Notes: generated by a model from the letters alone, not told the origin. DNA of 48,389 bases from Candidatus Magasanikiibacteriota bacterium (GCA_002716765.1 PBBY01000014.1:1-48389); one strand, 5' to 3'; positions 1 to 45,301 are shown, counted from the stretch's first letter. Made by a program: numbers and translations.

Positions 1-125
1 ATACAATAATACAAAAAACACTCAATGACGAGTGTTTTTTGTCCTAAACCGTTTCTATGCAGAACATAAAAACGGTAATTGGTGGTCACGCAATACAGAA
101 AAGAATTTTCTTGTATGTTGTGACA
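1..125. repeat. Direct repeat copy 1, 3' flank of an accessory cassette
   Basis: This stretch recurs at 2359-2482. The first ~100 bases are essentially identical, and the last ~25 differ by small indels and substitutions. It begins at the window edge, so its left boundary is unknown. It contains a perfect terminator hairpin and lies just downstream of the minus-strand gene at 150-875. Copy 2 has the same relation to the HD-domain gene at 2520-3731. Short matching sequence (ACTAAACTAA) continues towards both stop codons. It reads as the shared 3' end of two gene cassettes. No ORF is seen in it. Confidence 0.9.
13..40 (-). terminator. Bidirectional intrinsic terminator in repeat copy 1
   Basis: A perfect 11-bp stem (AAAAAACACTC / GAGTGTTTTTT) closes a 6-nt loop AATGAC. 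A-run and T-run flanks allow termination in either direction. It sits about 110 bp past the stop of the minus-strand gene ending at 150. Confidence 0.85.
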
Positions 126-149
126 AATTGAAAGAACTAAACTAACTAA

Positions 150-875
150 TTAATCTGCGAGATGCCGCTTCACAACCCCTACAGCAGCTAGAAACTCTTG
201 ACGATCCCTACACTTAACAAACTGCCGCGACCCATGCACCGGTCCAGATAATGTCTCACCTTCACTATCAACCTCATCTGACCACTCGAAGTCCTCAAGT
301 CCTAGTGAAGGAAGGTAGGTGCCAATAAAATATAGCTGATACTTCTCCATATAAATTGTCCCAAACTGAAACCCAGCCAAATAGGCCCCCTGAATACAAC
401 CGTCGACAACCCCATGAGGAAAGCCATGAGTCTTGGTCTCAAAGGTGGATTGCATTACCTCAAGCTCATCTCGAGCTGCCCTTAGACGAGCCTCTGGGTC
501 TGAAGCAAGAAATCCAAAGCTATGTAACTGCCATAAAAACCCTTCCTGATCCACCGCCCCCTCCAAGCAAACACTAGACGCCGCAAGCCACCATACCGTC
601 TCAGAGTCAGGGTCCATATCTTCCGACTCTGTGCGCACCTGCTCAACTGCTCCAGCAGTATACGCAGCATGGAGAGTAGCGGACAGTTTCTGCTTATCAC
701 GCGGAATTAAATCCAGCGCGCAAGCGATACCAGCGTCAAAACCAGGACCCTCACTTCCTGAGCCAGGAACCCTCGAAACGAGTGACTCCGCCGGAATGTA
801 TGAAGGCCAGTTTCCCAATGCGGCAACCCGACCTGCGTTTTTACGAACAGTATTTTGAATTTTAGAAATGCTCAT
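150..875 (-). CDS. Unknown accessory protein, 241 aa
   Basis: I do not recognise this protein. The chosen ATG at 875 begins MSISKIQNTVRKNAG and is preceded by a strong SD (GGAGG, minus strand, 883-887). The frame stays open upstream to an ATG at 971 that sits 6 nt beyond the -10 box. That would add a hydrophobic ~34-residue segment resembling a membrane anchor, with leaderless initiation. The body looks soluble, acidic near the C-terminus and rich in Gly/Ala, with no familiar motif. The gene appears clearly GC-richer than the core genes. It lies in a module whose promoter-leader and 3' repeat match those of the HD-domain gene at 2520-3731, which suggests acquisition as a self-contained cassette. 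Function unknown; coding status is supported by the SD, promoter and terminator. Confidence 0.75.
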   Translation of the reverse strand: MSISKIQNTVRKNAGRVAALGNWPSYIPAESLVSRVPGSGSEGPGFDAGIACALDLIPRDKQKLSATLHAAYTAGAVEQVRTESEDMDPDSETVWWLAASSVCLEGAVDQEGFLWQLHSFGFLASDPEARLRAARDELEVMQSTFETKTHGFPHGVVDGCIQGAYLAGFQFGTIYMEKYQLYFIGTYLPSLGLEDFEWSDEVDSEGETLSGPVHGSRQFVKCRDRQEFLAAVGVVKRHLAD

Positions 876-977
876 AATTAACCTCCAATAAAGGGAGAAA
901 AAGTAAACCACAAACCCAGAGCAAATAAGGAAAGTGGCTAAGATTTTAAATGAAAGCCGAATGGCAATCATGAGCAC

Positions 978-1006
978 ACCTTACCACACTTCTGCACATT
1001 TGTCAA
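978..1006 (-). promoter_or_regulatory. Promoter of the 241-aa accessory gene
   Basis: Minus-strand -35 TTGACA (1006-1001) and -10 TAAGGT (983-978) are separated by 17 nt. The spacer, both boxes and the first ~30 bases of leader closely match the promoter at 3822-3850. Predicted transcription would start at or very near the ATG at 971, so a leaderless start is possible besides the SD-led start at 875. Confidence 0.8.
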
Positions 1007-1375
1007 GTGTTGAGTGTTATGAAAATGTGTAAATTAACTAAATTAAACAAAATCTACATTTTATAGCAAACCATATCTCCTGCCATTTCGAACTGGATGT
1101 CAGAAATCTGTAATGAAATAACATGTGTGTGAAAACTTCAAGCATTTGGCGAATGAAGAAAGAATCTGGAGGCAAGGTAAAGCGGTGCCAAAGGCACATA
1201 AGCCACCTGTTTGAGGAGTAAAGTGACGAGTTTTGGCTTATGAGTTTTACCGAGTCCCGAATTCTCTGAATGAGTCATCCGCTCAGTACTTTTTGCGCAA
1301 CTTTTTGGTGCCAAAAAGTGAATGAAAAAATATTCAATGTATTGAAAAGTATTACCATTTCAATCACCAAAACCC
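1007..1375. other. Intergenic spacer with inverted repeats and a 46-codon ORF
   Basis: This 370-bp gap separates two divergent promoters. The part from ~1130 to 1320 is GC-richer than its flanks and dense in dyads: GTGCC-AAA-GGCAC (1185-1197), CATAAGCCA / TGGCTTATG (1197-1205 with 1234-1242), and ACTTTTTGG-TG-CCAAAAAGT (1300-1319). The minus strand holds a 46-codon ORF from ATG 1278 to TGA 1138. It has no convincing ribosome-binding site, and its arginine/leucine/proline-rich peptide resembles no family I know. I regard it as an unproven ORF in a structured spacer. Confidence 0.5.
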
Positions 1376-1404
1376 TTGACAAAACAGTATTTCCATGGTA
1401 TGGT
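1376..1404 (+). promoter_or_regulatory. Promoter of the glycosyltransferase-like gene
   Basis: -35 TTGACA (1376-1381), 17-nt spacer, -10 TATGGT (1399-1404). Predicted start near 1411 gives a ~36-nt leader with a GAGGAG SD at 1435-1440 before the ATG at 1447. Confidence 0.75.
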
Positions 1405-1446
1405 TAACACAAGCCATATGGGCGAATATTACAGAGGAGTCTCAAC

Positions 1447-2304
1447 ATGAGACACGCTACTGACAAAAAAAAGAATACATTTGGTTTACTTCTTCGGGTG
1501 TATTCCCAAAATGTGGATGATATACCTAAAAGAATAAAAATGGTAGAAAACGCCATAAGCGCAGCTGGACCTTTTGTTTCTCGAATTGACGTCCTTGTTT
1601 GGGCGGACAAAGAGTATATCGACAGTGATTGCGGATCAACAACCAGCGTACTAAGAGCACGCTTTAGAGGAAATAAGTTGGTACACATTTCTGAAGTAAA
1701 GAATGGTGATCTTTTTTGCAGCGTATTAAATTACGGCATTGCTTTACAAACAAAAAATGCTGTTGATTACACTATCGTTGCATCACCAGAGGCGTTCAGT
1801 TATATGACGCCGTCTACCATGAATAATATTACTCAGGCAGCAAAAGATGGGGCACTAGCAATTGGTGTAGCAATAAACGAACTAACAAATTCCATTTTGG
1901 AAGGAAGAATTGCAAATACCTTTGCCGCATGGCACAATCTCTCATTGCTCACAGTTGGTGGATTTGACCTTTTGGCTGCAAAACCCAAAGTACCAGAAAT
2001 GGGAGAACATGTAATGGGGTGGAGCAAAGAAAATGACAAAAAAGTCTTTTACCCGCTTGCCGGCGTAGAAGAAGTTATTCCTTTAGCACGATTAGTGGAA
2101 ACATTTGGAAAATGTATTGCCACCATTCTTCCATCTGGAGATGGTGTGCAGAAATACGAAACACCAGAAGTAAGTACAGAAGCGTACGAAAGACATGTTA
2201 GAAAAATTGCAACAAAATTTAGAAGACAAATAATACATTTGTCAAAAATAAATACCAACCCTGAATTATTGACTGGTGGCATCTTACCAGGATACCCTAA
2301 GTAA
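1447..2304 (+). CDS. Glycosyltransferase-like protein (GT-A type suspected), 285 aa
   Basis: The ATG at 1447 follows a good SD (GAGGAG). The protein opens with a strand-like segment FGLLLRVYSQNVDDIPKRI and a second at about residues 49-53 (RIDVLVWAD). Near residue 100 it has LNYGIALQTKNAVDYTIVAS, then a segment ending in NTFAAWHNLSLLTVGGFD around residues 158-175. That order (nucleotide-binding strands, a central hydrophobic segment before an acceptor region, a GGFD-like element) resembles family-2 glycosyltransferases with a GT-A fold. No clean DxD metal motif is evident, so the assignment is tentative. No signal peptide or membrane helix is seen. It has its own promoter and terminator and is the only plus-strand gene in the accessory block. 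Confidence 0.6.
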   Translation: MRHATDKKKNTFGLLLRVYSQNVDDIPKRIKMVENAISAAGPFVSRIDVLVWADKEYIDSDCGSTTSVLRARFRGNKLVHISEVKNGDLFCSVLNYGIALQTKNAVDYTIVASPEAFSYMTPSTMNNITQAAKDGALAIGVAINELTNSILEGRIANTFAAWHNLSLLTVGGFDLLAAKPKVPEMGEHVMGWSKENDKKVFYPLAGVEEVIPLARLVETFGKCIATILPSGDGVQKYETPEVSTEAYERHVRKIATKFRRQIIHLSKINTNPELLTGGILPGYPK

Positions 2305-2322
2305 TACAGAGTTTGGCCTCAA

Positions 2323-2358
2323 TCCTTAGAAGTTCTTACATTACCTAGGGATTTTTTT
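2323..2358 (+). terminator. Terminator of the glycosyltransferase-like gene
   Basis: Seven-bp stem TCCTTAG / CTAGGGA (2323-2329 with 2345-2351, one G-U pair when transcribed), followed directly by seven T. It lies 19 nt past the stop and abuts repeat copy 2. Confidence 0.7.
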
Positions 2359-2482
2359 ATACAATAATACAAAAAACACTCAATGACGAGTGTTTTTTGT
2401 CCTAAACCGTTTCTATGCAGAACATAAAAACGGTAATTGGTGGTCACGCAATACAGAGAAAGAATTCTTGTATTTTGTGACA
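2359..2482. repeat. Direct repeat copy 2, 3' flank of the HD-domain gene
   Basis: Second copy of the 1-125 sequence, offset by 2358 bp. Identity is near complete to about 2458, then several small differences occur up to a shared TGTGACA. It lies between converging genes and supplies the terminator for the minus-strand HD-domain gene. Confidence 0.9.
2371..2398 (-). terminator. Bidirectional intrinsic terminator in repeat copy 2
   Basis: Same 11-bp stem and AATGAC loop as at 13-40. It sits ~120 bp beyond the stop of the HD-domain gene and would also back up the terminator of the converging plus-strand gene. Confidence 0.85.
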
Positions 2483-2519
2483 GTTATAAGGAGCTCTACT
2501 ACTAAACTAATAATGACTA

Positions 2520-3731
2520 CTATTTAAGCTTTTTAAGCGCTTTACGAACGTCTTTATTGTAACGCCCAAGCCCTCTACCGGTCTCTTGAGAAAGGATACC
2601 TAGGTTTCCCATATCCTCAACTACCATCATCAGAACCTCTTCGGGAAGAGCGATACCACTAAGTACAGCACAGACGTCTTCTTTAGAACGGAGCTGAAGT
2701 TGGCATGCTTTTATGATACGGTCACACGCCTCCTGGACTGTTTCTTCACGAAACGCATCTTTAGCGTTTTTTAGACTACGCACCATATCTGCCAATTTAA
2801 GCTCATCAAGATGATTAGGCAAATCAAGGCGCTGACTAAACGGTGTAAGACCGTCATATACAGAATTTCTGGTTCGAGAACCATACGTTGTATACGGCCC
2901 TCTCTTTTTCATCTCTTTTTCGTGAACACTTAAAAAAAGCTCATGCTTTCCTAGTTGACCACAAAGTAATTCGAATTTTCTTAAGGCCAAAAACGAAAAG
3001 GAGAAGTTAATGAAGTTAGTCAGATCAGGCTCTCCATTCTCTCTTAACGAAGCCATCTGATCAGCATAATTACACACCAGAATCAAGCCGGCAACAAGGT
3101 CGTCGCAATTAAAGAGTTTGAATGCTCTACCAATATCAACACTAGAATAATCTTTCGAATTTTCGTGTGTTGCAACTATGTACTTAAGTACTTCACTAAT
3201 ATCCTCCCGATCTTTAAACCTCTCAGCGGTGCAAGCACCATGTTTTCCAGGGAGATCATCAGTTGGATTTTGGTGATAATACGAGATTTGAATAATCCCA
3301 TTTTCTTTGCAAAACCTATCCAATTCCTCTCCAGCTGTTCCCGTAAACATAGTGACCCACTCATCCCAACTCACCTGAAGCATGGTCCCCTTCTTACCTT
3401 CTACGGTACGAAGTGGACTACATGAAGAAAGCTTAAGACTGAGACGACTCCCTTTGTCGAAGTCATGAAGAAGCACATATTTTTGGCAAAATTCTATACC
3501 TACACAGTTTACCGCCTCAACCATAATCTCTTTAACAGCTTTCGGTATACGAGCATCTATTACACCTTCTCCCACATCCTCAATCGTTTTCATAGCAAGC
3601 TCAAGATGGTTCCAAAGGAAAGACCCTTCTTTGTGATACGGTCCAAATTGTGGAACCATGAGAGTTTTGATCACCCAAGATCTAAGATCTTCTGGGATTA
3701 AGACCATAATAAGTCGGACTAATGCGTCCAT
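2520..3731 (-). CDS. HD-domain-like protein, possible metal-dependent phosphohydrolase, 403 aa
   Basis: The chosen ATG at 3731 (MDALVRLIMVLIPEDL) has a strong GGAGG SD on the minus strand (3738-3742). The frame is open to an ATG at 3815 that would sit 6 nt from the -10 box. The N-terminal third carries histidines in YHKEGSFLWNHLELA (residues ~32-46), then LLHDFDKG (His89-Asp90), resembling the paired His and HD doublet of HD-superfamily hydrolases. A later THEN and YADQM segment could supply the remaining ligands. The C-terminal half has no recognised domain. HD proteins commonly cleave phosphomonoesters, phosphodiesters or nucleotides; the substrate here is unknown. It shares its promoter-leader and 3' repeat with the unrelated 150-875 gene. 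A defence role is possible but unsupported by neighbours. Confidence 0.7.
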   Translation of the reverse strand: MDALVRLIMVLIPEDLRSWVIKTLMVPQFGPYHKEGSFLWNHLELAMKTIEDVGEGVIDARIPKAVKEIMVEAVNCVGIEFCQKYVLLHDFDKGSRLSLKLSSCSPLRTVEGKKGTMLQVSWDEWVTMFTGTAGEELDRFCKENGIIQISYYHQNPTDDLPGKHGACTAERFKDREDISEVLKYIVATHENSKDYSSVDIGRAFKLFNCDDLVAGLILVCNYADQMASLRENGEPDLTNFINFSFSFLALRKFELLCGQLGKHELFLSVHEKEMKKRGPYTTYGSRTRNSVYDGLTPFSQRLDLPNHLDELKLADMVRSLKNAKDAFREETVQEACDRIIKACQLQLRSKEDVCAVLSGIALPEEVLMMVVEDMGNLGILSQETGRGLGRYNKDVRKALKKLK

Positions 3732-3821
3732 AAAGCACCTCCATGATGCAAAGTAGAACCCAACACATTGTATTGTGAAGGGGTATTGTAAAGAAGAACG
3801 CCCAATGGCATTCATGCAGAA

Positions 3822-3850
3822 ACCTTACCAAACTTTTGCACATTTGTCAA
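3822..3850 (-). promoter_or_regulatory. Promoter of the HD-domain gene
   Basis: Minus-strand -35 TTGACA (3850-3845), 17-nt spacer, -10 TAAGGT (3827-3822). The 29-bp block matches the promoter at 978-1006 at almost every position, and the similarity continues into the leader (ATG, then TGCCATT, then GGC). Confidence 0.8.
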
Positions 3851-3877
3851 GTGTTAATTTTTCAAAATATACACAAT

Positions 3878-4834
3878 TTACTTAACAGCACCAATGAGCG
3901 CGTTATACACATCGTCAACATATGAAGACGATAGACGGTCTAGTGTGTCAGCACTTGATTGATATACCTGCATCAAATTGTCAAAATCACCCATCAAAAA
4001 AGCTGTTTTTTGAAGATATTTATCCATAGACCTAATAGGAAAACCAAGTTTCAAGAGTCTTGGATCATCATGAATAGTTGTTTTTGTATTGCCTACAGAA
4101 TCAACAATAAGCATGCGTTTCGCTTTTTCAAGCAACTCCCCGTACTCTTCTTCAAATGCTCGATACCCTCGTCCCCAGTATACCGGATAATCATAGGAAA
4201 GTTCCTCATTTCCACCAATAACATAAAGTGTGTTACTTAGTGTCTCCCGAGCATCAACACAAGCACGAACCACAGTGTATGTACCCGAAGCATTGTCGAT
4301 AGCGCCAGGACCAATTGAATCATAATGAGTAAACACAATGTATTCAGGATCGATAGTGTTGCCAACTAAAATATTTGCCGAAACATGGTCTACGGGCACC
4401 ACCTCAACAATTCCATTAACTTCCTTTGCCTGGACAAGAGTTGGAATGTCTAAAGCATCAACAGCAACAGAGGGGGCAAAATAAAAATTTGCCTGAGAAA
4501 TAGCACCAGGACAGCGCGGGTTAAAATTAATGTTTGTGTCATCAATATTTTTTTGTGAACTAATCAAAGAACTTAATAAGTGATACTGATTTGGTATTTC
4601 TCCGCTTCGCAATCCTGTTGGTAAACACGGAACTACCGCACCGTCGGCGACCAGAGAAACATGATCATACCGTGGCAATCGTGTATTAAATTCTTGCACC
4701 AAAAAATCAACACCGGAACGTAAAAGAAATGATTCAATCATCTTTCTACCTTGCACCTCAACACCCCCCTGCCTGTGCCCCAAAGCAACAAAATCAGCAA
4801 GCCAAGATGCATATGGAATAGATAATAAAGACAT
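3878..4834 (-). CDS. M28-type zinc peptidase-like protein, 318 aa
   Basis: Signature segments of the M28 aminopeptidase fold occur in order: FTHYDSIGPGAIDNASG (~164-180; first His, bridging Asp in DNASG), GGNEELSYD (~207-215; Glu-Glu pair) and IVDSVGN (~242-248; Asp). The last zinc ligand, normally a His shortly before a DT pair, is not evident: the equivalent stretch reads VYQSSADTLDRL. Catalysis may therefore be altered or lost. No signal peptide is seen, so the protein is probably cytoplasmic. It lies 75 nt downstream of an unknown 267-aa gene and probably shares its mRNA and its structured leader. There is no SD before the ATG. The family assignment is good; activity is uncertain. Confidence 0.8.
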   Translation of the reverse strand: MSLLSIPYASWLADFVALGHRQGGVEVQGRKMIESFLLRSGVDFLVQEFNTRLPRYDHVSLVADGAVVPCLPTGLRSGEIPNQYHLLSSLISSQKNIDDTNINFNPRCPGAISQANFYFAPSVAVDALDIPTLVQAKEVNGIVEVVPVDHVSANILVGNTIDPEYIVFTHYDSIGPGAIDNASGTYTVVRACVDARETLSNTLYVIGGNEELSYDYPVYWGRGYRAFEEEYGELLEKAKRMLIVDSVGNTKTTIHDDPRLLKLGFPIRSMDKYLQKTAFLMGDFDNLMQVYQSSADTLDRLSSSYVDDVYNALIGAVK

Positions 4835-4909
4835 AAAATGTATTAAAATAAATTAGAGGGGCCCTGTAAAAAGACCCCCACACACACCCAACCTCAAAAG
4901 CTTTACATG

Positions 4910-5713
4910 CTACAAAATCATCGAGCGATCTTGATCGTGCATTACCGCAGGAACAGCGTCATACCAGTTAAAACCTTCGGCAGGATAAAACCCTTGCCAA
5001 CGGTGCCAACGCGGCATTGGAACAATCAACGGTGTTAAACCAAATAATGACTGCACTTCCTTAAAGCTAGGTTCAAACACCTCGGCCGTAAATCGATCCA
5101 ACACCTCTCCAGACTCACCACCATGATAATCTTCGAACAATACCCCGTGGGCCACAAACATTGCAAGGTACGCCGTATAATAATCTTTTGCCCGACCAAA
5201 ATCGCCAAACCACTCAGAATAGTCAGCAAAAAAAGCTGCATGACCAGACAAGTGCTGATTTCGCTCGTGCTCATGAAAACGAACCAAAGGTCGACTTCTG
5301 TCTTGACACATAATACTTCCAAGCTGCTGCCCCTGACAACGGGGCATGGTCTGCAGAACACGCTTTTCTGTTTTTGGACCACCCGAACGACCGATACCAC
5401 AAAACACATGATGTTTAATAAGTGATCGCTTATACGAACTAAGAGATACAAATGTATCGTCAATATACGACCCAAAATACGGGACCAGACCACTCGCCTC
5501 AGCCAATCGATAAAAAACTGCATCTTCCATCCGAAACGCAGGAGCGTGACGAAAAAATACACCAAAAGGTTTATTGAACCGAGCAATATCAGGAAGATTT
5601 TTTCCACCAACAGAGAGAAAATAATCGGTCAGAAGGGGTTTTACCTCTTCACGTTGCCTTAGTATTGTAGCCGCCTCATGCGCGCCAATATAAAATGATT
5701 GTGTTTCAAGCAC
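4910..5713 (-). CDS. Unknown protein, 267 aa, partner of the M28-like gene
   Basis: Starts with GTG at 5713; an in-frame TGA lies just upstream, so no longer start is possible. A weak purine-rich SD (AAAGGGA) precedes it. The protein is rich in His, Phe, Tyr and Trp, with clusters such as RFHEHERNQHLSGHAAFF (~145-162) and PMPRWHRWQGFYPAEGF near the C-terminus. It resembles no family I can name. The His-rich centre might bind metal or be catalytic, but this is speculation. No membrane helix or signal peptide is seen. It is the first gene of a two-gene unit preceded by a leader with an attenuator-like structure (5714-5957). Confidence 0.7.
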   Translation of the reverse strand: MLETQSFYIGAHEAATILRQREEVKPLLTDYFLSVGGKNLPDIARFNKPFGVFFRHAPAFRMEDAVFYRLAEASGLVPYFGSYIDDTFVSLSSYKRSLIKHHVFCGIGRSGGPKTEKRVLQTMPRCQGQQLGSIMCQDRSRPLVRFHEHERNQHLSGHAAFFADYSEWFGDFGRAKDYYTAYLAMFVAHGVLFEDYHGGESGEVLDRFTAEVFEPSFKEVQSLFGLTPLIVPMPRWHRWQGFYPAEGFNWYDAVPAVMHDQDRSMIL

Positions 5714-29261: not shown

Positions 29262-32200
29262 TTACTCTACCTCTTGATCACCATCACAGGCAAGAGGTAG
29301 TTCATCAACATATTCTGCTGAATCTAGCCCTAAATATGAACTAAAGAGATTGTCTTCTTCTTTTAGTAATCGTAAAGGGGAAAGATTTCTTTGATTATTA
29401 TAGTGTGTTTTATTAGGTGGAAACAATTTATCACAATCAGTTTCAGTCACCTGTTTCTTTGTAAAGGTTATGATACCATCTTCGCCAACAGAATCGAAGC
29501 TATAATCATACCCCCCTTCTTGTTCATTGAAAAATTTGATTTCATGAGCATGTCTAAACTTATCCAACGAATCGATATTTTCACCAAAAGCCCTTTCAAA
29601 ACCTTCCATCAAAGCACCACCACAAGCAGTAACCTTGAAAGAAAAGGAGTCGTCTAGAGGAGAAATTACATAATATGGAAGTCCGAGTTCTCTTATAACT
29701 GTTCTTATATTAGTGTTCTCAAAAACATAAGAAGGACCTAAACCTTCACCACCACAATGATTTCTATTAGTAACGCTCACACCAGCACTGAGTAACATTT
29801 CTTGAAAAACCATATCTGGTTGTCCAGGCCTTGGCGGCAAGATTCTTGGCTGCTCAAGCTGACTCTGCCCTGCTGATTCTACTCTATCTAAGAAACCTTG
29901 ACACTGATTCTCATTAATATCACAAGTTCTATTTGGCAAACTTTGCCCGAACCCACCTTGAATATCTTGTAAGTTTGTTCGAATTACACCATGATTTTGT
30001 ATATTACCTGGATTAACAATGTTCTCGTCATTTGCACAATAATTTTCTTGACCAACCTCAACAATATCATATTCACAGGTATCTGGGTTAAATACTATAT
30101 TAAACGGATGCCAGTATCTTGCTCCAGGATTAGCTGACTCCACCGCCTCACTCAACCTAAACACATAATCTGGTGTATACAAAGAGTATTTTGGATTTTG
30201 GCCTTCATGATATTTATAAACCTCTACCACAACATCTTCTCGTGAAACAAGCTCTTGGATGGATGTCTGGTTTTGTCCTGATACGCCAACATAAAACGCA
30301 AGCGGATACGCATCATTTAGTAAACTTGTTCGCTCTGACAAAAGGAAATCTGTATTTACTGTTGATGCTTGTGTAATAGTACTACCATTTTTTACACCAA
30401 AAACCTTACTCATTGCCACCGGCCTTCGGACAACTCTTGTTTTATCTGCCCATTGCTGCTCCATTATACAGTCTCCAGCACTCTCTACCGAGTAAGGAAT
30501 CCAGTAATTACTCCAATAATTGCTTGTTCCCAACCTTTGTTGTTCACAAGCATTTCCACCATAGTCTAAATAACTAAGTATTGTCTTTCCAGAATCCTCT
30601 GAAGCCTCTGGCACATACGCACCAACAGTGCTATTAATATTACCTTCCGCAGGTTTTGCACTATAAAAATTTCCATAAAACATTGGATCATTTTCTAAAT
30701 CCTCTTTCCATTTTATCACTACTCTAAATGTCCCTTCTGGTACGGCCGGAGAAAGTGTTACCTCATTTTGCATGGTCCTCGACTCACCGTTTACAGGATA
30801 CGGGAAAACACTTAAATTATTGTTAGCAAGTAAATCATCATTAATTGTTGTTTTTTGTTGATCCTGCCATGACTGATCAGACATTAATTGTTTTGGATTA
30901 AAAATAATTCCATACTCTTCACTACACAACTCTGATGTTTCCAATCTTTTATTCAACACTTCTCGCTGATTTCTTGTTAGAAGTTGTAAAGTGTTGGAAT
31001 AATTACTACGCTCAGCTATCCAAGAAAACCTTGTTACCACCCTCTGTTGTGAGTTAAACCTACCAAAATAAGTTAGTAAACCCCCACCCCATTCTGAGTT
31101 TCCAGCAAAGTCTGGGTCTTCTAAAACGTTGAGTATTTTTAATTGCGGCACCGCATCCCTTCGATCTACGACAAGTCCACAGTTAACACAATTATTAATA
31201 AGTTCCCTACAGTCAGATGAACATTGGTACACTCCTTTGTCTGGACAAATTTTATCTTCACTGTCTAGTGACGGTGAATCATTACTCAAAACGCCGATCC
31301 GTGCTAAGACTCCCAAAACCACATCACCTAAAGAGTCAGGATCCAAAGGATCGGTAAATGGAGAACTTACCACCCGCCTTGTAATTGGATCAACCTCACA
31401 TTTTTCATAATCTGCAAGTTGTTGGTTATTTATTATTTGTGTTTCTGGTAGTTTATCTACCACCCCATTACCGCAGTATGCAATTGGACTTACTGTTAAA
31501 ACCTCTCCACAATCCTCCGAACAATATGAACACGCTTCTGAGTATTCTGGTTCACATGGAATTCCATTTTGTGGACCTAAATCACAAACCTCAACATTCC
31601 CTTCCGCATTTGGTGATTCCACAACTCCATCACCACAAGCACCAGGAGGGGCGGCAACTTCGACTATTTCATCCATTTGACATAACCTGTTACACCCATC
31701 CCCATCAACCTCATTTCCATCATCACACTGTTCTCCTGAAATTCCTTGAACAATCCCATCACCACAATACGTGCCATAATTTTGACAATCTAAAGAACAA
31801 GAGAAGTCTTTATTTATGGAGTATGGTGTTCCAAAATTTCCAACCCGATCAATACAAGGACCAAGATCTTCGTAACTACGAGCTTCACCCTCATCTTCTA
31901 TGTTGATAATATGGAAGTCCTCGGCACCACCTATTCTGTTAAGGTGTGTAGTAAATTCACCTCTTGGCACATACTTACAGTCCGAATCTTGTAAACAACT
32001 TACCGTTTTATCAAACTGACAATGTTTTCCAAGAATTTCTTCGGCATTGTTAAATAAGCTGTTAAACACCCCATGGCCCACAAATAACGCAAAGGCAAAT
32101 GGATTATCACAAAGAGAGTCTGATTCACCATAAAATTCCCTAACACGACCAATGTGTGGTCTTGCCTCAGCACCTACTGGAACCCCTTCTGTAATGAGCT

Positions 32201-35200
32201 CCCAGTTTGGTTTATTACCCGCCACTCTACATACATATTCCTCACCATCATCAAAGTTTTGATAAGGCCTCCAGGTTATATTTTGATTAGTCTCTGGAAG
32301 GGTTGTAGTAAATACAGTGGAAGAATTTATTTTCATCCCTATATAAGAAGCACAACTTAACTCCACTTCGTCATCTGGGCTTATTCCACGAATAGCACAT
32401 TGTGAATCAGGGCAACAAATACCTGATTCCTGGTTTGGTAATTTTGCACAATTGGGCTTACCTAATGCTGAATAGCACTGGTAGTCGTTGGTACATTCTG
32501 CTCTAAGACTTGTGTCTGGCTCTCCATCTAGTTCTATATCCCATACCCACTGTGCATTACCAACAGGTACTTCAAGATTTGAGTATCGTTGGTGACAAGA
32601 AAAGTTAGGAGTTGGATCAGTCTCAGGATACAATCCAAACAAGACATTCGAATACTGCCCACCTTCTATCCGTTCACCAGGCGGAGTGGTACTAAACTGA
32701 GATTTCCAATAATTGTTAGCCGCAACACAAGAAGCACTTTCTGGGTACATTCCACATTGATTTGATTCACAGCACACACCTTCGTCTTGGTCTGGCAGTT
32801 TTGAGCAGTTACCACTTTGACAATCTGTATTTTTTGTACAGATGGCTGCGTTATTTACTAACTCAGGCACAGAACATGTCGATTTCCACCTACCCTGAAC
32901 ACATTTCTTATCTCCTACACCTAATCCGTAGAGAGATTCTTCATAAATAAAACCTTCACCAACACACCCATCGTCTTCTGGCCAAAAACTGCAACCCTCT
33001 ATACAACACATTCCATGAATACCGTTTAAAGAACTACAGATACCAAGATCTTCAATAACCTGACCACCATCTCTCAGATTACACCAGTCATCATTTTCAC
33101 ATGCCGTCATAGGTGTATTTCTTATTCTTGGGTCTATTGTATAGTTTACGTCTTCTTCAAAAACAAATGGATCAGGACTAGCATAAAAACAACCATCAAC
33201 TAACTCTGCGTTAGGTTTTCCCTGACCAGCTACCGCACGCCACGTTCCATTATTACACTGCATTTCCGTACCAGCACTTAACATACGACTCTCTTTACAG
33301 TCTGGTGGGTTACCTCCATTAAGTAAGTCACCATCAACAGACGTTACCTCGCCGTCACAGTTAAGGTCTATTAAGAAAAGTGATGAATTATTTACACAAG
33401 TTTTATCGACGTTCAGTGAGGCATAACAATCTGTGTCAAAATTATCCAAGAGTCCATTTCCAGTAATATCTCCAAATAATTGATAATTTGATCCATCTAT
33501 AATCTCACCACTTTCTACACACCGGTGTTCAAATGGATACATGCCACAAGAACCAACATTACAACACAATCCATAGTCATCGGTAAACTTTTTACAACTA
33601 CTTCTTGCACATTGTTCTGAGTTTGAACATAATGCATTCTCATGTTCGGCTGTTCCACAATATTGTCCTAATGTTTCTACAAGCCCAGCAATAATCACGT
33701 CCTTTCTTTCTGGGTATAAAATTGATTCATACAGCGCAGAACCTAACCCTTCGATGGAATAGCGTGTTCTATATCTATATCTATAACTAACACCCTCCCC
33801 CTCTTCATCGTCTTCTTCACTATCCCAAACATCCACAAAATCAATATGAGTAATTTGTTCACACAATTCTTCTGGCTGTACTGTTAGGTCTCCACAAAAA
33901 CCAGCTGCGCTTATACCACTACACTCACTATTACACTGTCCATACTGACCATTTAGCCTTCCATCATCACAATCTTCGTCCCCTTCAATAATTCCGTTTC
34001 CACACACCGCTACAAGCCCTCTACACACTGGCTCTGTGTAAGTACAGTCTGGTTGACATACTTTTACCGCAGCCTCAAGATTGTTGTTTGAGCAAGATAC
34101 CGAATTATTTTGTGGTTGGACACAGTCTCCACCCCCATTACACTCATCATTATCGCTACAATATTCTGTAATATTATTTTCACAAAAACCAAGACAGGTG
34201 TTACCTTCTCCACAATCACCATCATCAAAACACGTATCAGCATTATTTTCACTACATCTTCCCTCTATTTTTCCTTCTCCACCATTATTATGTACACTTC
34301 CTGGTGGATCACATTCTTCACTTTGATTTATTACACCATCACCACACTGCCCGCCAAGTGCGCTATATACTTGCTCTGCCGCACACCATCTTTGTGTGGT
34401 GACATCTTCTTGTGGTGTTTGTGTTATAAAGTCATCTATAAATGTTGTGCCAGCACTATTTATTACAGAAGAATTATCTATGTTAAAGAATTCAAACGGT
34501 ATATGAAGGGTATATTTTGTAGTATTTTCAACTTCATACTCATTTACACTCATTGACCGTGGGCAAATAAATTCTGTTTCAATTGGATTCCAACATGTTT
34601 GCCCATCTACTAATTCACATGTATTTCCTTCTCCAACACATTCTTCGTCTTTGTAACAGGCGGCAGAAATCATTGTGCTTTCTGTATTACAAATAGTATC
34701 AACCTGAGTAAAATGTTCTACAAAATTTTGATTTGTTTTAATTTCTGCATTATTTTCCAAATATTCAACCAGTGTGGCTTGAATAGTTGGGTTTACAAGC
34801 TGATTTGGTGTATTTATCCAGGACCCATCTTGATATGAGGAGACAAAAACGGAGCCACCAATAGTTGCAGAAACCACTTTAGACTCATGACAATCAATAA
34901 TCTCATTCTTGTTACTATCTATATCTTCAGGGTATGCTTGATTATTATCTAAAATAACCAAAACAAGTTCTGCATCTTTTTCTGTAAACTTTCCGTCACA
35001 ATCCACATCAATATCAGCGACTTCGTTATGGTTTGGGCATTTCACACAAAAAGGAATATCTGGTTCATCTATACAAACTTCCGCAAGATCACCATCACTA
35101 CCACCAGCTCCTATAAATTCCTCAAAACATGCAATATCGTCAACCTTTAACATACCATCACCACTAATATCCCCGTATACCACTTCTGGATTATCTTGTT

Positions 35201-38200
35201 GTATTTTAAGCCCAACAGAACTAACATCAAAACACTCACTATATTGTCTTTCACTACACTTCCCACAAGTTGTCCATCTACTAATTGGATCAAATGGTAG
35301 TGGTGCACCAATAATTTGAGAAAGTCTTCCCCAAGATGGCCATTGTGTATTTGTATATTGTGGAATATAAGTTCCACCAAGAAGTGGTGGATACACACCT
35401 TCTCTGTCGTGGTACGCGCCAAGCGCTTGCTGCGTTTCTTTTACCGCTTGCAACCGACCTAAATCACGGAAAAACTTTGTTTTTGCATTGGAACAGACCC
35501 CGTTTGTACCTTCGATTGGATACCCAGACCCATCTTTACAATCAAAGTCTGTGTTACAAACTATATCTACTGTTTGTGCCAATACATGAGAAGGGTTATC
35601 ATCTTGATCATAAATTGGATCATATTTTTCCAATGCTTCTACTTGAGTATCGTCAGCAAAATCACCATTCGAGCCAGCACCTTCAACCAAACATCGGCCA
35701 GCTTCGGAAAAATTAGTATTAAACTCAAGCGAACTCATAAGTTGGTTGAAGACATTTTTGGTATTTTCTTGTGCGCCAACATTTATGGTAAAAAGATAAA
35801 TATTATTATAAATCTTGTATCGGCCACCTTCTTTTACTATATTCATGGCATTTATATAATAGGAATTTCCGTCTGTTACCGCGTCGTATCCAGCAATATT
35901 TGCCTGGGATAAATTTGAAGATGGAAATTTTTCTGCAACCCAACCTTGCGCGGTTAGGGCGTTTGGATTTGGGAATATTTGTATACCAATAGCATCATCA
36001 TTTTTTTGTGTATCGGTAAAGAGTTTTCTTTGCAGTGTGTCTTGGTGGGTCAAAAGTTGTGTCGTTTGTTGCTCATTCACATCACCACTGTATTGTAATT
36101 GACCATCTAAAAGCAGAGAACCCAACTCTAGCTCACCTAAAAACGGTAAATCATCATCTTTATCTCCTTGAAGTCCGGCATCGGCACAATATGACATACT
36201 CAAATTGTGATAAGAATCCTTATAACTTGCATCACCATTTCCTGGCCACGGGTTTTCACAAAAGAGTGATTCTAGTTTTGTTATTGCAGCAAAAGTCTTT
36301 CCTTCGTCAGAGGGTTCTGAAATGTCTGCTGTAACCGTTGCTATTACACTTGCATCATCTTTTCCTTCTACGGCGGTGGAGCTAATATCTTTTACCAACA
36401 GGTTAGGCGGTTCTTCGGTATCGGAAATAGTAAAGAATGCCCGGTTTGAGCTCCAACTTACTTCCCAACTGTATGCAGGAGTTGTTTGGATTGATTCGTT
36501 ATCTTTAGTAAAGACTGAAGCAACAAATCTGTGTGATTCATTTGGACTGGTAAATAAATATGCATCTGGGTCTACTGTGAGATGATCTATTTTACATATT
36601 TCGTCTTTTGTTTCAAAAACAAAGACATCATTTGGCCCATACCCAGCCGTTCCTTGAAGAATTTGAGCACCTCGGATACCCACCCCTTTTGTGTCTGTTA
36701 TTCCGTCTATTCCACCTTTAAGAATTACAGCATACTTCGTCTGTGTTTTTAGTACATCTTCTAAAATAATATTAATGGTGCTAGTTGTATGCGGCCCACC
36801 TTCTTCGTTACCTGAAATAACATTTCGTACTTCTGGTGTTATTCCTATTTCACTTACACACCATTTTTTATTAGGATCCAATGACGATGGATTATCTGCA
36901 TGAGTTGGTGTTGCAAATAATCGTGCAAAAAATGTTTTAATACCATTCCATATTTTTCTAAAAAATCCTTCTGAACTTATTAAATCGTCTGGAGGCGCTT
37001 GTCCGTTTGCAAGAAATACAAGATCAGTAACCTCTTCTTTTTCATTTGCACAAACATCTTTTTCTTCGGCAAGGATAACATTTCCTTCTAATGAAAACTT
37101 ATCAATAAATCCTTGATCAATAAATTCCACGTATATTGCTGAATTTGGACAAGCGTCTATTTTATTATTTTGTGGATTTTCTTGTGTTCTGTGCATCCTA
37201 TCATAACAGCAAGAATTTGCACCAACACCTTTTTGATTTACCGGATTATTTATACAGGTATTTTCTTCGGCTGTTTCGGTATGGCCACAAAGTAGACTAT
37301 ACTCACCAGTTCCCTCAACCTGTTCTGTGAGATTATTATAGTTATTATTTTCTCCTTTTATACTAACTGCTGTAGCAATAATCCTTGCTTCTTGTGCTAA
37401 ATTAATCGGATTAAGCACTCCTTCTCCAACTGCAGTTACAAGTTGCACAGGATTTTCTACAGATCTTTGTTGTTGCGGATTACCTATTTCACATGCAAGA
37501 AATTCTCCAGGACCAGTTTCCCCATCTCCACAAATTGATCTTTCGCTATATAACACAGATGATCCGACTATTCTGCAACTTCCAGCGACACACGCATCGC
37601 TATCATCTGGATTACACCCAACTCCACCATTTTCTACTGCTGGTATATCCGCAAGCAAAGCCCCGTCTTCATTACAAAGACTGTGCAATAAACATCTATT
37701 ATTACAATGACGTGCTGCGTCTAAATTGTTAATAACAGTTGACCCGTTAATTCCTCCAACACTTATAAGTTTTCCGTTTTCGTTAAACTCACACTCTTCT
37801 CCATCTTCTAGTTCTCCGTTTCCGCAGATTGTTTTTCCACTAATATCAGTATCATCACCTACTGTTGAATTACACGCGTCTATTCCATTTTCTAGATCAT
37901 TTGCAGCACACCAAACACCAGAAAGTGGAGATCCTATGTTTAGACATTGATTAGAACAACCTGAACCAAGAGAAGGTTCACACTCTTCTCCTGAAGTAAC
38001 TTCACCACTTCCACACCATGGATCTTGTCCCACTCCACTGTCTGTAAATTCAGCCCCTTCATTGGTACATGTTGCAGAACATCCATCACCGCTATCACTA
38101 TTTCCATCATCACATTCTTCTCCGACTACTTGTTCAACAATGCCGTTGCCGCACTGAGAATCTTGTTCTCCACTGACTTCATTCCCCGGTCGTAAACAAT

Positions 38201-41200
38201 CGTAACCACAACTTACTCCTGGCACTTCTTCTTGAATTGCTATATCACAATCCTCTCCGGCGTCTACTGTACCATTTCCACAAAGCGCCCCGGACAAAGA
38301 ATGATAAGTACTTGATGTTACTTCACTTCCTTTTAATGTACACGTTTCGTCACAATATGGTGAAACAGCAGAAAGATCACCTTTTAAATTAGTTATTTCT
38401 GCGACATCACCAGCTAAAAAACCTTCTGATGTTTGAAGAATGTCATTTTCTGTACGCCATTCCCAACCATATTTCCATGGATCTAATTCTTGACCAGCCA
38501 AATTACAGGCATCTGGCTCTGAAACCGGAATAGAAGAGTATCCTGTTATTTGACCTATATCTCCTGCAGTAAACGGGGTTGGAATAATTCTTACAGAATC
38601 AATAACACATCGGGCTGCTTCGCCTTCCCCTGATTTTGTTCTAAATCTCCAAGAAAACTCCTCTTTCATTAAGACACCTGGAATCTCAGAACCATCATCT
38701 GTATACCCACCAATCGCCCGAATAGTGGTTGGAACGGTGACTTTGTACCAGGTATTTGATTCTAATTCATTCGTCGGATTAAATCTATATTCTACTTTTG
38801 AATTATTTAAGTTTTGAAAATTAAGAACAAGATCTTCATTTGTTTGTGCACACGTTTCCGAAGTACATTTTTGCAATCTAATACCATTTTGCACTGTATC
38901 ACTCATCATTTCTTGATTAAACTCTATACCAAGTGACACATTCACACAAGCATAAGAACAATCTGGCCAAAAATTAATTACTTTTGGATCACTTAAATCA
39001 ATAGTTAATTCACTTTCCGCGACTATATCCCGGCTAGGTGTTGATGTGGTTGCTGTAATTGACACAGTTCCCGGGCTTGGAACAGTATTCTTTTTAGCTT
39101 GGACTATTACACGAGAATCGGTGTATTGTCCCGCTACCGCAGAAATCTGCACTTTAGCGTAGTTGCTACCCCCCTGTTCCGGAGCCCACTGCCAATCAAA
39201 GCCATCTACACCAATAACGGTACATGCTTGATCTGCCAAACCAAAGACAAAATAATATAATGGATTTGATGGTATTACTCCAAAAGCTACCTCCTGTCTT
39301 GGGTATCTAGGATCTTGTAAATAGCCCAAAAATGTTGTTGTTTTTTCTGGCGGATTAATTCCAGCTGCAGCAATTTCACAAGAACTACCTTCGGGACCTG
39401 TTTTGAAATCAAAGCAATATGCAGTATCCCCACCACAACCTCTGGTTTTCTGTAAAGGAAGATTTTTTAGTTGGAGCTCACCACCACTTCTAATAAATTG
39501 TTCTGATTGAATATTTTCTGATAACTCTACATGGTACCATGTTTCTGGAGCCAACCCATCTTCCCAAATAGTTAGTGTTTTATTTTCTAAAGATGGCTGA
39601 AATGCATCTTCGACACTGTTTATACGCACTTTCCTTGAACAATCTGGCTGACCCTGATCATCTTCACATGTATATAACCGGACATTTTCTTTAGTAACAG
39701 TTCCTGGATTCATTTCTGTATTAAAAGCAACCTGCACTTCTGCATTTAGGCAGGTATTATTACGGTCAACTGTTTGCCAACTTCTCCATGGTGTTGGGGA
39801 TGGTTGAGAAATAATTTCATCTTGTTCGCAACTACCACTATTCCACGAACATTTTGGAGTTTCGTTGCAATCATCTTCTCTGTCTATAGTTACACAAGCA
39901 ATATCGCATTGCTCTAACACTCTTGGTAATTCTGGAATCCAGCCGGTGCTAAATCGCCACACATAGCCTGCTTCTCTGGTTTCTCCGGCACAAAGATTTT
40001 GTCCAGAAAGCCAGACACCAGCATCTGAACCATCTTCACAACATCGATAATTAACTCCTGGAGCACTAACATTTTCTTCTCGACAATCTTCTACGGTATA
40101 TGTTACACCATTGCTTACTAATTCATTTTCTGGTTCACCTGTTGCAACTTTAATAAACCCTGTTTGCATAGAGTATCCATCTTTTTCTGGGAGAAGTGTT
40201 ACGATTTCTGTATTATTTGCTTCTTGAATAACAGGATCTTGTATATCACCAGGAAGCGGGTCGACAGAAGAAAGCCAAGTACTAAAATCATTACTATCTG
40301 AACCTTTTGTCCAAAAGTATACCGTTGGTTCAGCACCAAAGTTTACTCCTTCTATGGTAATTCCATCGTTATCATTAGGAAGTGGTGCCGGACCTTTGTT
40401 AGGTGTAATACTACAAATTCCCGGCATTGGTTGACCTTCTTTTACTTCAAAAGTAATATCTGCATTTGAAACTTGTGCATTTGATTGTACGGCAATATGA
40501 TAAATATTAGCTGCAATGTCCAACCCATTAAGATCTGTGACTTGCATGATAATTTCTGTGTCATTCCATAAATCACCACTACAATTTTCTAAAGGCGGTG
40601 GTGTTAAGATAAAACATTCATCTCCAGGGTTAGGGTCATTTGCACATTCTATTGCTCCAGCTTGAGTTGTATGGATTGCAACCACACCAACCCTATTGCC
40701 AAAGTTTTCTCCGGTAATTGTTATAAGACTACCGTCTGTAACAGACTGCGGATCAACGGAAGTAACAATTGGTGTTATTTGTGCCAAATCTCCAGCAAGT
40801 TCTAAAAAGTAGGCATTACTTCTTTTTACATCACCACCGATCTGATTATCCAAAAAAACAGGAATTCTGGAAGGCTGTATGGTTGGAATACCAGTTTCTA
40901 GCAGACTGTCTGTCCAAGTGGACACGCTTCCAATAATATCATTATTACCAAAATATAAATTATCTCCTTCTTCTTGGTTGTTGCCAAAATTTACTCCACT
41001 CACAACAACATCCTGTCCTAAAAACGCATTTTGTATTGGTATTTGTTGATTATTTTGTGCTGCGACAAAACAAATTCCAGGCCGAGAAACATTGTTTATA
41101 GCAAAATATGAATTTCTTCCTCTATCGTCTATGCTTGTTTCTTCAATTATTTCCCCACCATCATCTTCATTTGTAATTTGTAAATAAACTGAACCATTGT

Positions 41201-43018: not shown

Positions 43019-45238
43019 TTATTGACCCGGTTGGCCTGAAGGTGGACTAATGCCCGGATCCTGCAAATGTTCAACACACGTGTCTCGGTCTGGTTGCATG
43101 TTTTCATTGTTTTGCAAGTTTATTGTATATGCACATCCGGTATCGTTATTGGCCGAATTAGGGGCATTAATTGCAACAGCCTCCTCTGTAGGAATACAGT
43201 CAGTTACTGACTCTACCAAATAAGGGAATTCTTGACTATATGTAACTGCGCAATCTGAGTTTTGGTTTTCTGGCCCAAAACCAGGATAAAAGCAGTTTCC
43301 TGTACTACTTTTCATAGTACTAGTAGTGGTAATCGCATAATACAAATCTTTTCCTTGTGGACCAAACACTCTGTGTTGTACCGTCATTTCTGTATGACAG
43401 TTTGAAGGATTATTTTGATCACAAGACCTCTCAAAAGTAGGACGCTTCCAAATACTTGCTAAATTTACTTCTGCTCCCCCGTATTCTTCTATACCCACAT
43501 CATATAATGTTTGTAATTGCATTACTTTGCTAAATGTTACTTTTAGCGCTGCTCGCTCCCCTACATCTTGCGCGTCTACAAGCGGTGTTACTGTTTTTAT
43601 ATATGGTGGTTGTAAATCAATTTCATTTCTTACTTCAAACTCCCAGTGGTAATTATCTGGATCTCTCTCATTTTCTCCCACCACCTTTTTGTCTCCAACC
43701 ACTGGTTTCCCATCATTTACTCCATCATCACCCCCATCTAACATATTTCCAGCCATATCCATAACACCCGGTGAGATTCCGGCAAACGCGGCGGCGTTTT
43801 GTTGTGGTGTTGCAGTTCGTACAAGGATTTCATAATCCTCATATTCTGCAGCAATATCTGCAACAGGTAAACAGTACACCGTATCACCACACGTGTTTTT
43901 TCCACACGCCTGATCCGAGTAAAATTCTACAGTTTTATAGCCATTTGAAATTTTCCATTCACCACTTACATCCGCATTACCAAATATCATATTATGAAAC
44001 GAAGAGTCCTGGGATAGTGTACCCTGCACTTCCATTGGATCCACAGGTTCGCTAAAGGTAATACTTACCGTGTCATTACGTGGAATTGACCTACCTACCG
44101 CTGGATACACACTTACGACAGTTGGGGGTGTCGTGTCTATATTGGTGCCAGTTTCAAATTCCCACATATAGTGATTGTCTGGATCCGCACCAAAAGCATT
44201 GGTGTCTCGTGCTGTTTTTACTCCAAATTCTACTCCATCTTCTGTACCGGTTCCCCACACTTCTACCTTATGCCACACATGTTCTTCTGGGCTTCCTAAA
44301 TTCTCTATTGGTTTTATACGAAATGTTTTTACTTCACGATTAGCACCCTCGTAAGATGCATAGACAATGGCTGGTAAACGAGGATTCTCTATTAAGTCTC
44401 CTGCCTCATTAAATTGTGGACCTTCTTCATCGTCTGCTTTTTGAATACGAATTGTTGCGGTATTTACCGTGTCGCAAACCGCTTCTGCGCCATTACCTAA
44501 ACACCCACCATAAAACGGTTTGTCTTTTTGTATATTTTCACCATCTTCTACAACCACAATCTTTTTACACCCATTATTTGGCACATTAAGGTCTTGTGGA
44601 ATAAAATCTTCGCCATCCAAACCTTCTTCGCCATTATCTTTTTCACAAGAATTATTTGTATTTAGTATAATACTTGCCGGATCTACAGCTTCTGTAAAGG
44701 TGATAGAAATACTGGTATTTCTGGCAACGTCGGTTTGCCCTCTGTTTGGGTAATGATCTTTGATTACTCTTCCCAAAGCACCACTTGCGGTAAACGTTAA
44801 TTCTTCTGGTGGTGTTGGACCCCGAAGTCCAGTTTGGGTACGACCCGTTCCAGTTGCGGCACTGAGCTTATTTAATACAAACTGGGCAATGGTAAAAGCT
44901 GAAAGTGTAATAGCCAAACCAATAACACCGTTTACTATAATCTTTTTTCCATTTACTATTTTATCTTCGGCTCCACCAGAAAACATGATTTGTGCCCCGC
45001 CATAAATAACAATACCAAGCATAGCTATCCCAAGAAGTCCGAGTAATACATTTATAATTCTCATTATAATAACTCGAATATCTGTGGACACCAAAACAGT
45101 ACCACTTTCATCAAAATCTGTTACTCCAAACACATCTGGTGCAGGATCATTTTGTGCAAAAGTAGGCGATGGCGTAAATACAAATAAAAAAACCACCGCA
45201 ATACTAAACATGACTATCGCAATAGTTTTTTTATTCAT
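43019..45238 (-). CDS. Secreted paralogue with pilin-like N-terminus and Ig-like domains, 739 aa
   Basis: The ATG at 45238 (MNKKTIAIVMF) is preferred over a start 10 codons upstream because it places the signal peptide correctly (cleavage after FA near ~27). PDVFGVTDFDESGTVLVSTD and the two helices that follow match the giant protein's N-terminus almost segment by segment. Three Ig-like, Big_5-type domains then follow near 170, 370 and 560 (ARNTSISITFTEAVDP, IPRNDTVSITFSEPVDP, GERAALKVTFSKVMQ). The short Pro/Gly-rich end lacks a sorting motif I can identify. Likely a surface structural protein working with the giant. Gap to the giant gene is 62 nt without terminator. Confidence 0.85.
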   Translation of the reverse strand: MNKKTIAIVMFSIAVVFLFVFTPSPTFAQNDPAPDVFGVTDFDESGTVLVSTDIRVIIMRIINVLLGLLGIAMLGIVIYGGAQIMFSGGAEDKIVNGKKIIVNGVIGLAITLSAFTIAQFVLNKLSAATGTGRTQTGLRGPTPPEELTFTASGALGRVIKDHYPNRGQTDVARNTSISITFTEAVDPASIILNTNNSCEKDNGEEGLDGEDFIPQDLNVPNNGCKKIVVVEDGENIQKDKPFYGGCLGNGAEAVCDTVNTATIRIQKADDEEGPQFNEAGDLIENPRLPAIVYASYEGANREVKTFRIKPIENLGSPEEHVWHKVEVWGTGTEDGVEFGVKTARDTNAFGADPDNHYMWEFETGTNIDTTPPTVVSVYPAVGRSIPRNDTVSITFSEPVDPMEVQGTLSQDSSFHNMIFGNADVSGEWKISNGYKTVEFYSDQACGKNTCGDTVYCLPVADIAAEYEDYEILVRTATPQQNAAAFAGISPGVMDMAGNMLDGGDDGVNDGKPVVGDKKVVGENERDPDNYHWEFEVRNEIDLQPPYIKTVTPLVDAQDVGERAALKVTFSKVMQLQTLYDVGIEEYGGAEVNLASIWKRPTFERSCDQNNPSNCHTEMTVQHRVFGPQGKDLYYAITTTSTMKSSTGNCFYPGFGPENQNSDCAVTYSQEFPYLVESVTDCIPTEEAVAINAPNSANNDTGCAYTINLQNNENMQPDRDTCVEHLQDPGISPPSGQPGQ

Positions 45239-45301
45239 ATACATATATTGTTGAATCCAAGGGAGCATGGGACCTGGGACTCTTAAAAATAAATAACACT
45301 G

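Follow-up and report, generated by a model that had tools for sequence, protein, structure and literature searches.

Two genes that encode dissimilar proteins but share nearly the same promoter, leader and 3' element were found together in a Candidatus Magasanikbacteria-type genome, a draft of 0.89 Mb (G000), and we consider them to be members of an order-wide family of exchangeable single-gene cassettes, a reading to which we give a probability of about 0.6. Each cassette would start with a strong promoter close to consensus, followed by a structured leader and a single ORF, as a rule foreign and GC-rich in composition, and would end with a 3' element in which a hairpin specific to the lineage (P1) precedes a conserved RNA hairpin (P2) and then a terminator (P3). 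Such shared ends, around a content that changes at fixed chromosomal sites, suggest that acquired genes are carried and expressed in a manner not described before, and no description of the element or of the cassette system was found in the open-licence literature searched.

The window, i.e. the whole stretch of 48,389 nucleotides that was analysed, contains core genes near the site (ftsZ, dprA and the hisS region, from a Pfam scan of the neighbours). Gene B (150-875, 241 aa, no family match) and gene A (2520-3731, 403 aa, with an HD-like motif recognised by eye) lie on the minus strand, at the coordinates given by an earlier, sequence-only reading of this DNA. Direct reading and a promoter scan located their minus-strand promoters at 3822-3850 for A (TTGACA at 3845-3850, a 17-nt spacer, TAAGGT at 3822-3827) and at 978-1006 for B (TTGACA at 1001-1006, a 17-nt spacer, TAAGGT at 978-983); the spacers are identical at 15 of 17 positions, which confirms the near-identical promoters noticed in that reading. 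The leader of A (3732-3815, minus strand) exhibits a hairpin at the predicted transcript start, a second weaker hairpin and a GGAGG Shine-Dalgarno sequence, and that of B (876-971, minus strand) a hairpin at the predicted transcript start and the same GGAGG before the ATG. The similarity claimed for these leaders was found as a 90-nt direct repeat (952-1041 and 3796-3885) with 74% identity. Downstream, also on the minus strand, the 3' element of A covers 2366-2482 (P1 2442-2481, P2 2406-2434, P3 terminator 2369-2400) and that of B covers 1-125 (P1 85-124, P2 48-76, P3 terminator 11-42). The two are 99% identical over 1-102 versus 2359-2460 and 97% over 1-125 versus 2359-2482, with an E-value of 4e-53 in their own genome, far beyond chance, so that the common repeat of about 125 bp with its terminator is well founded. 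Contig C14 ends at base 1 of the window, inside or at the edge of the 3' element of B, so that the sequence beyond B is unseen.

Between the two genes lies a plus-strand unit (1376-2356) with a CDS at 1447-2304, its own TTGACA-17-TATGGT promoter and a terminator-like end, as had been described; its GC3 of 29.5% is ordinary for G000, it is missing in the sister species, and its standing as a cassette is not shown. An interspersed intergenic repeat at 1081-1346 is 87% identical to positions 3020-3285 of contig C36 of the sister species G001, where it lies on the opposite side of gene B, and fragments of it occur elsewhere in G000 (C4:6789-6823 and C2:12165-12204). Farther along the window, one ORF of about 4,565 aa at 29262-42956, which probably encodes a giant surface protein, adjoins a gene (43019-45268) with Ig-like and weak T4SS-pilin matches.

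A model of the 3' element built from four near-identical copies (R2) led to weak relatives with a conserved core, mixed with generic terminators, and was replaced by a covariance model of 15 copies (R3) comprising the P2 hairpin, the linker and the terminator. R3 detected the element in 36 of 40 genomes of the family at E ≤ 0.02 and in 25 of 40 at E ≤ 1e-4, about 15 of these outside the training set. Among 285 genomes drawn from the class, 12 reached E ≤ 5e-4, of which 11 belong to the same order, and a second family of the order contributed three genomes (L169-L171) that contain the element with the same GC-rich-island picture. Weak R3 matches in other families (L172-L174) correspond to ordinary genes, and matches beyond E of about 1e-4 in other families were not counted as cassettes. 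An exact consensus pattern, searched in 84,980 genomes, was found in six contigs, all from Candidatus Magasanikbacteria or Uhrbacteria. The sequence-only reading had held that repeats occurring only here would speak against a modular system: in its exact form the 125-bp repeat was indeed seen at the window locus and its sister-species counterpart alone, whereas a wider family of elements extends beyond the locus and appears only with the structure-aware model. No Rfam 15 family matched at E ≤ 1 in window positions 1-5000, nor at gathering scores in 11 relatives.

P2 is a structured 3' UTR RNA element with compensatory changes. In a plain MAFFT alignment 97% of its cells are paired, four of the ten pairs show changes on both sides, and the covariation score was reached by 0 of 500 shuffles. 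An alignment of 48 copies (47 distinct), fitted to the model, gave 95% pairing and a compensatory change in 10 of 10 pairs. At one pair U-G wobble is the commonest state (33 of 47 copies), and the retention of G-U wobbles suits RNA better than folded DNA. The sequence of P1 is unconserved and the hairpin is absent from some copies; the idea that P1 is gene-specific was dropped, the tandem copies in G000, G001 and G003 having a common P1. Contig C2 of G000 (L132 1-69) starts inside a 3' element, with P2 truncated, followed by a TTGACA promoter and a gene. Since contigs break at 3' elements, cassettes may be under-represented in MAGs.

The coding composition of the cassettes is foreign to the host genome. 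ORFs directly upstream of the element (n = 38, at least 100 aa) had a GC3 that was on average 31 points above that of the remaining ORFs at their loci (Wilcoxon p = 1e-10), with a positive difference in 22 of 23 genomes, and 30 of the 38 lay at or above the 95th percentile. A and B are among these, with a mild shift only (36 and 44% versus 28%; 97th and 100th percentile). GC1, GC2 and amino-acid usage are shifted likewise, G- and C-ending codons both being increased, and the ribosomal-protein genes rplJ and rplL of G000 have a GC3 of 16-23%, so that a codon effect of high expression is not the cause. Along the cassettes, GC content steps up at the start codon from 33% upstream to 59% and stays at 59-60% in the CDS, is 54% just before P2, and drops to 23% exactly at P2. 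A perfect TTGACA was present within 300 nt upstream in 24 of 43 cassettes versus 36 of 256 other ORFs (p = 1e-8), and TTGACA together with an extended -10 in 16 of 43 versus 12 of 256 (p about 1e-8). The genes upstream of the element are mutually unrelated; their products include an asparaginase, a radical SAM/B12 protein, a GDSL lipase, an M20 peptidase, an acetyl-CoA hydrolase, a dioxygenase-like protein, lipoproteins and many unknowns. Strong matches with no clear GC-rich ORF were found in G047, L158 and L138. The units at L138 and L158 (G052:C69, G023:C33) exhibit a promoter, long GC-rich hairpins and the 3' element with no evident long ORF, and are possibly noncoding RNAs or decayed genes.

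The content of the cassettes differs at corresponding sites. One pair of flanking genes in genus g23 encloses two cassettes in G023 and a single one in G052; in G054 it encloses a single cassette whose ORF differs, together with a relic 3' element that is fused to the gene before it. One unit among the three genomes lacks an evident long ORF. Three genera, represented by G042, G022 and G045, carry asparaginase cassettes that have the gene in common and not the flanks. Copies are mostly single and scattered among core genes, the site in G008 being atp-tatD. Unlike genes in tandem with P2 cores 97-100% identical were found in G000, G001, G008 and G003, compared with a between-genome mean of 60%, and the pairs of G008 and G003 mean that the picture first seen in the window recurs in two further genera. 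The A-B pair itself is conserved between the two congeners G000 and G001. The genomes being species representatives, the exchange observed is one among species and not among strains. The search among relatives for the repeats, for the genes that they accompany and for variable content was thus positive, and the earlier suggestion of a modular system for exchangeable genes gains support from the element following unrelated GC-rich genes across the order, from the tandem pairs and from the three congeners whose site content differs. A further locus, common to G058 and G010, was dropped as a clean gene swap because the C-termini look alike; its two lipoprotein-like genes may be diverged, fast-evolving orthologues.

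The leader was found at a third gene of G000, methyltransferase-like by eye (C3:31628-31744; L036 3129-3245). Its DNA match has an E-value of 1e-6, and the E-value of 2.5e-16 with the leader covariance model (R1) follows by construction, R1 having been built with this sequence; the predicted transcript-start hairpin is kept through one compensatory change from C-G to U-A. This gene is not GC-rich and the 3' element is absent from it, which indicates that leader and 3' element are separable. The leader fold has weak statistical support from its five sequences, the covariation score being reached by 47 of 500 shuffles, and weak R1 matches consist mostly of promoter and Shine-Dalgarno alone, with the leader fold missing. 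By folding and by eye, with no control, the predicted transcripts of many cassettes start with a stem-loop, of unlike sequence from one to another. In the leaders of L169, L171, L152 and L151 we observed GTTCTTTA, which resembles the boxA antitermination motif of rRNA leaders; it occurs upstream of 5 of 43 cassettes versus 1 of 256 other ORFs. In G001, the leader of A (L024 566-663) has an open frame that ends in TGATG and overlaps the start of A, and the matching frame of G000 runs in phase into A and into B; a leader peptide or translational coupling is possible.

These shared ends could belong to a post-transcriptional regulon with no exchange of genes, and this is the main rival of the cassette reading, although we regard it as improbable. 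The genes would then be old residents with common UTRs, co-regulated by one RNA-binding protein or RNase, and their GC-richness would be selected because it gives structured and stable mRNAs. P2 behaves as RNA, through its U-G wobble in 33 of 47 copies and its compensatory changes, one leader is common to three genes of G000, and in G058 and G010 the UTRs are conserved around diverged coding sequences, all of which would fit a regulon. Against it, the shift extends to GC1, GC2 and amino-acid composition, the site content differs in the three congeners, and the asparaginase cassettes of three genera are without common flanks. In addition, a homologue of gene B in G007, 53% identical, is without the cassette ends.

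We find it quite unlikely that the 3' element is an attC-like folded-strand site at which a tyrosine recombinase inserts ORFs serially, as in integrons. An imperfect palindrome 3' of each ORF, 3' repeats more alike within a genome, co-oriented tandem copies and a composition boundary exactly at P2 are observations that fit such a site. However, near-consensus promoters of their own are frequent among the cassettes, most copies stand singly among core genes, the helix has G-U wobbles that suit RNA, and no recombinase was found among the Pfam-scanned neighbours in the window and in the arrays of G003 and G008.

A tandem duplication, after which A and B diverged beyond recognition while gene conversion kept their UTRs alike, is very improbable. 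The best BLASTP E-value between the two proteins is 2.6, in agreement with the claim that they are unrelated in sequence, and their lengths differ (403 versus 241 aa). Comparison of A, B and the plus-strand gene with Pfam, NCBIfam, PHROGs and PADLOC gave no significant match, a sequence search of the PDB gave one weak, uninformative match, and the AlphaFold models of A and B, with mean pLDDT of 42 and 46, were too poor for fold comparison. A and B have separate homologues in other genera. The homologue of A in G045 (L026 6541-7656; G045:C1:16540-17655) has a GC3 of 96% in a genome of mixed composition, with a strong promoter and a long leader hairpin upstream of it, and comes directly after the 3' element of another cassette. 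In G001, the only congener compared (contig C36, JABJHO010000004.1, Candidatus Magasanikbacteria bacterium SI074_bin22), A and B are adjacent in the same order, with leader and 3' element as in G000 and with the plus-strand gene absent; the gene upstream of A differs, being a thioredoxin in G001 and an M28-like peptidase in G000. Each protein is well conserved between the two species (50% identity for A over the whole alignment, 73% for B), which also speaks against divergence beyond recognition. In either species, the 3' elements of A and B resemble each other in their core more closely than they resemble their counterparts in the other species. This is a mark of local duplication or gene conversion and, read as concerted evolution or recent duplication, is the observation that favours a tandem origin.

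Least probable of all are phage morons or prophage remnants, the link suggested in the sequence-only reading. Single accessory genes, each with a predicted promoter and terminator of its own, would fit them, but the element pattern had 0 matches in 2.9 million viral contigs, A, B and the plus-strand gene had no significant PHROG match, gene A had no match in phage records, and the sites lie among core genes.

Under the preferred reading, that of exchangeable single-gene cassettes, the ends would act at the RNA level, where the transcript would be protected or processed, and a newly acquired ORF could in this way be expressed strongly and independently of its surroundings. New cassettes might arise when copies of the chassis are duplicated side by side, and ORFs might be swapped between chassis by homologous recombination in the shared ends, with DNA that plausibly comes from transformation, the transformation gene dprA being present in the window. 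Patescibacteria, whose genomes are tiny and which depend on others, still acquire genes. We propose, tentatively and as a possibility that we ourselves rather doubt, that an order of these ultra-small, uncultured bacteria (Ca. Magasanikbacteria and relatives) possesses a dedicated RNA-based chassis by which foreign genes are taken up, expressed and exchanged singly, the ORF being interchangeable while promoter, leader and folded 3' end stay constant. This would set it apart from integrons, transposons and phage morons. The question bears on how acquired genes are expressed in AT-rich, streamlined cells. With the signature of P2 hairpin, GC step and promoter, acquired genes can be listed genome by genome and their exchange tested in population metagenomes, and the survey yields a new structured RNA family together with genes for lipoproteins and hydrolases, missed by family searches, as candidates for interaction with the host.

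Compared with known systems, the cassettes resemble phage morons in being single, mutually unrelated accessory genes that lie between conserved genes and each have a promoter and a terminator. They differ in that their element pattern is absent from the 2.9 million viral contigs searched, and in that a covarying RNA element at the 3' end and a strong type of promoter are common to them across the order. Like the cassettes of integron attC arrays, they are unrelated ORFs of foreign composition, each with a folded repeat at the 3' side; the repeats resemble one another more closely within a genome, and some copies stand in tandem. Integron ORFs, however, are mostly promoterless and depend on a common Pc promoter, whereas these cassettes have promoters of their own, are mostly scattered, show no IntI-type recombinase among the scanned neighbours, and possess an RNA-like helix whose core adjoins a terminator. 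As in Rfam families, the 3' UTR element is structured with compensatory changes, although it has no match in Rfam 15 in the stretches scanned. Bacterial mRNAs are known to be stabilised by 5' stem-loops, e.g. in the ompA leader, and by REP-type hairpins at the 3' end, and the cassettes likewise have a predicted 5' end with a hairpin on or close to it and, directly before the terminator, one or more further hairpins. In contrast to those mRNAs, the cassettes combine both ends, the 3' one being conserved throughout the order, on genes that are exchangeable and foreign in composition.
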